Assembly: GCA_903822975.1 (NCBI GenBank)
Contig: CAIJRD010000013.1
Coordinates: 1 to 64,000 of the forward strand
DNA length: 64,000 nucleotides
DNA from: an uncultured Sinobacteraceae bacterium
GTDB taxonomy: Bacteria > Pseudomonadota > Gammaproteobacteria > Nevskiales > Nevskiaceae
Reading direction: 5' to 3'
This document shows, piece by piece, positions 52,570 through 52,929 of this stretch. Below the pieces are notes generated by a model. That model was not told where the DNA came from, searched no databases, and worked only from the letters and a program-made list of their open reading frames with translations. Numbering within the stretch: position 1 is the first letter of the stretch; each line of letters opens with the position of its first letter. A program made the position numbers and the translations under genes.

Positions 52570-52653
52570 TTCGAGGCGATTGCTTCGAGGTGATCGCTTT
52601 GAGGCGATTGCTTCGAGGCGAGCGCTTTGAGGCGATCGCTTTGAGGGGATTGC
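52570..52653. repeat. Tandem repeat, 6 copies of a 14-bp unit (consensus TTYGAGGCGATYGC)
   Basis: ttcgaggcgattgc/ttcgaggtgatcgc/tttgaggcgattgc/ttcgaggcgagcgc/tttgaggcgatcgc/tttgaggggattgc. Confidence 0.95.
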
Positions 52654-52776
52654 GGTAGAGACGAATACTGCGGGGACGATCGGCCGATCTTCCCCGTTTT
52701 TGTTTGGACGATTGCCCACGGCCGCATCGGCATGACGCACCGATCTGCGCGCCGGTGATCGCAGGAAACAATCGGC

Positions 52777-52808
52777 GAATCGTTCAGCGGCCGATTCGTT
52801 CAGCGGCG
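52777..52808. repeat. Direct repeat, 2 copies of a 16-bp unit (GAWTCGTTCAGCGGCS)
   Basis: gaatcgttcagcggcc / gattcgttcagcggcg. Confidence 0.85.
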
Positions 52809-52849
52809 GTCAAGGCGGGCTGCCTAAACTGGCTCCACCTCAACGCATT

Positions 52850-52929
52850 GGGGCCATAGCTCAACCCAGAAGAGCGCGACTGCATTCATTTCAGTCGAGA
52901 TTGGGGTGCAAATCCCTGTGGCTCCACCA
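52850..52929 (+). tRNA. tRNA-like element with alanine-type acceptor stem (G3-U70, A73, encoded CCA), non-canonical 9-nt anticodon loop CATTCATTT
   Basis: Hand fold: GGGGCCA/TGGCTCC acceptor; GCTC/GAGC D-stem; CGACTG/CAGTCG anticodon stem with 9-nt loop; TGGGG/CCCTG T-stem with loop TGCAAAT; ends ACCA; 80 nt. Confidence 0.7.

Follow-up and report, generated by a model that had tools for sequence, protein, structure and literature searches.

An alanine tRNA-like element family with a drifting anticodon loop and a conserved acceptor end in the genus Nevskia

The window is a 64,000-nucleotide stretch of DNA from an uncultured Sinobacteraceae bacterium (GenBank assembly GCA_903822975.1, contig CAIJRD010000013.1, positions 1 to 64,000). 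It holds, at 52850-52929 on the forward strand, an 80-nt sequence that forms a complete cloverleaf whose alanine acceptor end is intact. From the 5′ end, the arms read GGGGCCA TA GCTC AACCCAGAA GAGC G CGACTG CATTCATTT CAGTCG, followed after CAGTCG by AGAT TGGGG TGCAAAT CCCTG TGGCTCC A CCA, and the T stem is closed by two wobbles, U49-G65 and G50-U64 (Table 1). The MFE fold is this cloverleaf (-32.5 kcal/mol, z = -3.3) and none of 200 shuffles equaled it; because of these two results, the structure is not a chance fold. A sequence-only reading had described the full cloverleaf, an acceptor stem with G3-U70, A73 and encoded CCA, a 6-bp anticodon stem with a 9-nt loop, a D loop without GG and the T loop TGCAAAT. 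All of these features were found again in the sequence, the cloverleaf also in the MFE fold, and the D loop carries A18 G19 in place of GG. ARAGORN called no tRNA in the window, and Rfam returned no match for the element at its gathering score; the best tRNA-like match, Tymo_tRNA-like, was rejected because its 12.3 bits are far under the cut-off of 40. The closest normal tRNA in the genome is its own tRNA-Ala(GGC), with 70% identity and with both 7-nt acceptor strands (GGGGCCA and TGGCTCC) identical. Because of this identity and the common acceptor strands, the element derives from tRNA-Ala or, at minimum, bears a tRNA-Ala acceptor end.

Table 1. Features of the tRNA-like element and its upstream region (R1 is the family covariance model described in the text).
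Feature	Position	Strand	Remarks
Upstream conserved word CGTTCAG-N7-CAAG	52797-52814	+	Common to the other two loci at near-equal distance
TAAACT, putative -10-like hexamer	52825-52830	+	Resembles those before several ordinary tRNA genes of the genome
tRNA-Ala-like element, cloverleaf with encoded CCA	52850-52929	+	98.4 bits with R1
Acceptor stem 5′ strand GGGGCCA, G3 of G3-U70	52850-52856	+	Same as own tRNA-Ala(GGC); pairs with 52919-52925
D arm GCTC/GAGC, loop AACCCAGAA	52859-52875	+	A15; A18 replaces G18; G19 retained
Anticodon arm, 6-bp stem CGACTG/CAGTCG	52877-52897	+	Stem conserved or covarying among members
Anticodon loop CATTCATTT, 9 nt	52883-52891	+	Loop of 9/8/7/6 nt across members
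Variable region AGAT, 4 nt	52898-52901	+	T48 is the Levitt-pair partner of A15
T arm TGGGG/CCCTG, loop TGCAAAT	52902-52918	+	G55 replaces T55; T loop identical in RYN_595
Acceptor stem 3′ strand TGGCTCC	52919-52925	+	7 pairs kept in 4/4 members; one compensatory change (7-66)
A73 and encoded CCA	52926-52929	+	Invariant in 4/4 members

The element had been taken for an orphan, a view that was abandoned when a DNA search of the same genome found a second copy with 79% identity at C18:32840-32915 on the reverse strand. A search of 80 relatives located a copy with 94% identity at the same locus in RYN_595 (G006), and the second own-genome copy, used as query, led to one at a different locus in RYN_593 (G007). 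All four members, in three genomes, belong to the genus Nevskia, where they are present in 3 of 18 genomes. Standard tRNA annotation misses or misnames such genes: the window copy escapes the standard tRNA models, the second copy passes RF00005 (41.8 bits) and is labeled tRNA-Thr(AGU) by ARAGORN, and the copies of RYN_595 and RYN_593 are called only "tRNA-???". A covariance model, R1, was built from the four members and used to search 85 genomes of the order. Members scored 89-98 bits and everything else scored 64.7 bits or less; in the two best non-member genomes the match sites were ordinary tRNA-Ala. Overall, ordinary tRNA-Ala reach about 53-71 bits with R1 versus the 89-98 of members. At a strict threshold, the own genome was the sole match of R1 among 369 genomes drawn from the class. 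A pattern scan of GTDB, one genome per species, demanded a GCGA..TCGAG stem, and relatives with other stems would escape it. It returned 19 stretches, two of them the Nevskia members of RYN_595 and RYN_593. The remaining stretches were discarded as evidence of a wider family, being ordinary tRNA-Ala or, in one case (L125), a copy truncated where its contig stops and uncalled by ARAGORN. Several Chloroflexi-type genomes (L109, L112, L115, L122, L123) have a tRNA-Ala(CGC) with A15 and a GCGAC..GTCGAG anticodon stem, both family-like; this type scores 71 bits with R1 and is a possible donor.

The anticodon loops of the four members are CATTCATTT in the window (9 nt), GTTTATTT in RYN_595 (8 nt), and GCAGTTG (7 nt) and GTTTAT (6 nt) in the other two. 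They depart from the loop of a canonical decoding tRNA (7 nt, U33, conserved anticodon): no anticodon is common to the four, the same-locus pair differ in loop length, and the sole 7-nt loop has C33. In the window and RYN_595 copies, A18 and G55 break the G18-U55 contact, and the T loop is the same in both. The second own-genome copy and the RYN_593 copy are normal at both positions, with T loops TTCAAAT and TTCAACT; the D- and T-loop oddities are thus not family-wide, as these two carry the usual GG and TTCAA. Since positions 18 and 55 are normal or altered in the same members, the two losses go together. Invariant in 4/4 members are U8/A14, A15, U48, G19, C56, A73, CCA, G3-U70, G2-C71 and G4-C69. 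The bacterial alanine determinants are A73, G2-C71, G3-U70, G4-C69 and G20 according to a review (Table 1, PMC9976931). All four members have the first four; the minor determinant G20 is missing in all of them, being A20 in the window and RYN_595 copies and C20 in the C18 and RYN_593 copies. The tRNA set of the own genome is otherwise normal and includes Ala GGC and CGC, so nothing suggests a decoding need. Ala(UGC) and Ile(GAU) are absent; these tRNA genes usually lie within rRNA operons, and a 16S search of the own assembly found none.

The same-locus pair permitted an estimate of selection. Both copies adjoin a convergent ParBc_2 gene, whose proteins share 70% identity and whose four-fold sites share 52.7%. 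The non-coding flanks at this locus align at 35-57% identity versus 90-97% for the element, in which 75 of 80 columns are equal and 0 of 44 paired columns changed. All five differences fall on unpaired columns: the D loop and the variable region have one each, and the anticodon loop has three, including an indel. The probability that five changes avoid all stems by chance is 0.016. Under neutrality at the four-fold rate, the probability that the 44 paired columns are all equal is approximately 6e-13. Because these columns are unchanged while four-fold sites retain about 53% identity, purifying selection has acted on the stems from the divergence of the two genomes onward, a result for one locus and one genome pair. 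Across the four members, 97.7% of the pair cells are standard, versus 42-53% with the partner strand shifted out of register. Compensatory changes in the anticodon stem had been suggested as a check by the sequence-only reading. Pair 31-39 (U-A/G-C) did change on both sides between loci, as did the acceptor pair 7-66 (A-U/G-C), but the two both-side-changed pairs observed are not above the 1.7 expected from column shuffles of the four sequences. The selection claim therefore rests on the same-locus comparison. The MFE fold of the second copy is no better than that of its shuffles (z = +0.2). The homologs that the same reading had asked for were found, four members in all, and its view of an alanylatable-looking tRNA with abnormal decoding, rather than simple decay, agrees with the retention of the stems among them.

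Upstream of the element, the sequence CGTTCAG lies at -53, -52 and -61 from copies at three independent loci and reads TGTTAAG in RYN_595; CAAG or AAAG follows at equal spacing in 4/4 members. A shared 7-mer within a 10-nt position limit occurred in 0 of 3000 shuffles and in 0.13% of ordinary-tRNA upstream triples. A wider 34-nt block is only suggestive, as 12 of 200 shuffles reach the same level. Apart from the upstream word the flanks are unconserved, and no conserved neighbor gene was found across the three loci. A sigma-70 promoter scan gave nothing at its threshold. At 52830-52839, 10 nt upstream of the element, TGGCTCCACC repeats 10 nt of the element's 3′ end (52919-52928) without a mismatch; this copy is not present upstream of the RYN_595 element. 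By eye, minisatellite-like GAGGCGATYGCTTYGAGG repeats occupy 52570-52650 between an OMP-like gene and the element, and GGGGACGATCGGCCGATCTTCCCC followed by GTTTTTGTTT forms a terminator-like, T-tailed palindrome after the OMP-like gene at 52671-52705, where the scan was silent. Since this hairpin with its T-rich tail sits between the two, read-through from the OMP-like gene into the element is doubtful.

The kind of molecule is known, as pseudo-tRNAs and non-proteinogenic tRNAs have been described (PMC8007984, PMC4810233). One close parallel is the non-proteinogenic tRNA-Gly of S. aureus that serves the pentaglycine bridge (Giannouli et al. 2009, per PMC8007984 and PMC4810233). Both retain acceptor identity with altered D and T loops and changed decoding features; non-translational use is known there and proposed here. 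The S. aureus tRNA carries glycine, keeps the anticodon UCC and has a known cell-wall use, whereas the Nevskia family has alanine identity and has abandoned the anticodon loop, in a genus in which FemAB is absent throughout. Another parallel is tRNA-Other of Bacillus cereus, a pseudo-tRNA outside translation with a proposed regulatory role (PMC3399842). Both are lineage-limited tRNA-like genes beside normal tRNAs, although non-decoding is an inference in our case; tRNA-Other has a Trp anticodon, is poorly lysylated in vitro and forms part of a longer transcript next to a genomic island (PMC3399842), whereas in the Nevskia family the Ala acceptor is complete, the loops vary and three unrelated loci are occupied. 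Compared with canonical tRNA-Ala, the family shares the acceptor stem, D stem, T stem and G19/C56, and differs in the anticodon arm, in A15-U48 instead of G15-C48, in the 4-nt variable region and, in two members, in A18/G55.

The tRNA-like domain of tmRNA likewise lacks an anticodon and carries G3-U70 in an Ala acceptor. However, tmRNA has no D stem and contains a long insert that includes the tag reading frame, while the Nevskia elements are complete cloverleaves of 74-80 nt; the window element has a D stem and no tag frame. Over its 3′ 28 nt, the element is about as similar to a Nevskia tmRNA as to the own tRNA-Ala(GGC). The Nevskia tmRNA is a separate gene, above cut-off in 12 of 18 genomes; none was found over cut-off in the own genome or in RYN_595, the two that share the window locus. 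This absence is probably an assembly gap, because tmRNA sits at contig ends in several other genomes of the genus. An origin from tmRNA, or its replacement by the element, was discarded on these two grounds, the 3′ ends and the probable gap. In genome G005, the tmRNA at L146:993-1169 is 177 nt long, about half the length of its relatives, with normal ends and the tag ANDANYALAA; either a short form of tmRNA or a collapse in the assembly may explain this length.

What is new is an alanine member with a free anticodon loop in which the synthetase determinants are held. No paper describing this Nevskia family was found among open-licence papers. Few tRNAs are known that have been retained as charged amino-acid carriers but do not decode, and a family in which the anticodon is visibly dropped while the synthetase determinants are held would make other uses of charged tRNAs directly testable. 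The explanation that we favor, with a probability somewhat short of even, is that the element is a tRNA-Ala-derived RNA, predicted to be alanylated, that has been released from decoding and is used off the ribosome. We strongly infer that it is not used for decoding. The gene would be transcribed and processed like a tRNA, and the RNA would fold into an L-shaped tRNA with CCA in which the anticodon arm is only a hairpin. By the established rules of AlaRS, the enzyme would recognize G3-U70 and the acceptor stem and alanylate the RNA. Either the Ala-RNA or, as a ligand of AlaRS, the RNA itself would then act outside the ribosome. A more detailed proposal, which we consider rather unlikely as a whole, is that of a dedicated anticodon-free Ala-tRNA family in a Gram-negative lineage, with its own upstream control word, feeding alanine to a non-ribosomal transferase, the anticodon arm being a hairpin of free length. 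Among candidate consumers, FemAB is missing from the genus, PF04738 (PEARL/LanB-type) gave no match, although its control was likewise silent, and PF09924 (aa-phosphatidylglycerol synthase domain) was set aside because it occurs in 18/18 genomes, with or without the element.

The main rival, which we regard as possible but not probable, is a regulatory tRNA-like RNA that acts as a structural element (as an AlaRS or RNase ligand, as a decoy or within a longer regulatory transcript) and for which charging is irrelevant. Selection on the stems and not on the anticodon would suit such an RNA, as would the abnormal T and D loops of two members, and tRNA-Other offers an earlier case of a pseudo-tRNA within a larger RNA (PMC3399842). 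Nevertheless, the strict conservation of G3-U70, G2-C71, G4-C69, A73 and CCA is left unexplained by a purely structural role, and the unconserved flanks beyond the upstream word speak against it. Improbable by comparison is that the members are dying copies of tRNA-Ala or remnants of integrated elements that look intact because they are recent. Their patchy presence in the genus (3/18), the 10-bp copy TGGCTCCACC near the window element, the loss of the 18-55 contact in two members and the Mu-like head genes next to the C18 copy are consistent with decay. However, the shared locus is old, as judged from the ParBc_2 protein and its silent sites, yet its stems are untouched; simple decay is opposed there. 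Neither neutral stem decay, judged at the shared locus, nor a 3′ fragment with a repeat, as a pseudogene or att remnant would have, was found. A prophage attachment at C18 was likewise rejected, since the 3′ end of the element is not repeated in the first 60 kb of that contig, and a true remnant in the same genome, at C17:133577, looks different, consisting of a tRNA-Pro(GGG) 3′ piece without a matching 5′ half.

There is little chance that the elements are unusual decoders, be it the UGA or frameshift suppressor once suggested for the window element or an Ala-inserting misreader with a 6-9 nt loop. Anticodon loops of 8 and 9 nt can shift frame, and such loops occur among the members; the window loop is centered on TCA, and ARAGORN assigned AGU to the C18 copy. 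On the other hand, CATTCATTT, whose conservation had been proposed as a check, has different letters and a different length already in the same-locus copy, U33 is missing from the C18 copy, and ARAGORN gave no more than "tRNA-???" for the RYN_595 and RYN_593 copies. Because the loop drifts in this manner, suppression or frameshift decoding seems unlikely. Least probable of all, and only slightly credible, is a phage- or defense-related decoy that, free of an anticodon, would be proof against tRNA-anticodon nucleases. Phage tRNAs that escape anticodon-loop cleavage through loop changes, as PMC10264068 describes, offer a precedent, and one copy adjoins a Mu-like region. However, the other two loci have an ordinary chromosomal context, and no member was found in a viral collection by pattern or in phages and plasmids by blastn; the sole viral pattern matches were two contigs with ordinary tRNA-Ala(UGC), and an origin from phages or plasmids was rejected. 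The Mu-like head genes of the own genome (L076:1931-7573, on C18) come to within 267 nt of the second copy; terminase, portal and head protein were recognized by eye and a virion morphogenesis protein by Pfam, with later tail genes unseen. Elsewhere in the own genome, G000:C17:133577-133633 (L075) joins the 3′ part of tRNA-Pro(GGG) to an unrelated 5′ part and is a probable integrated-element remnant.
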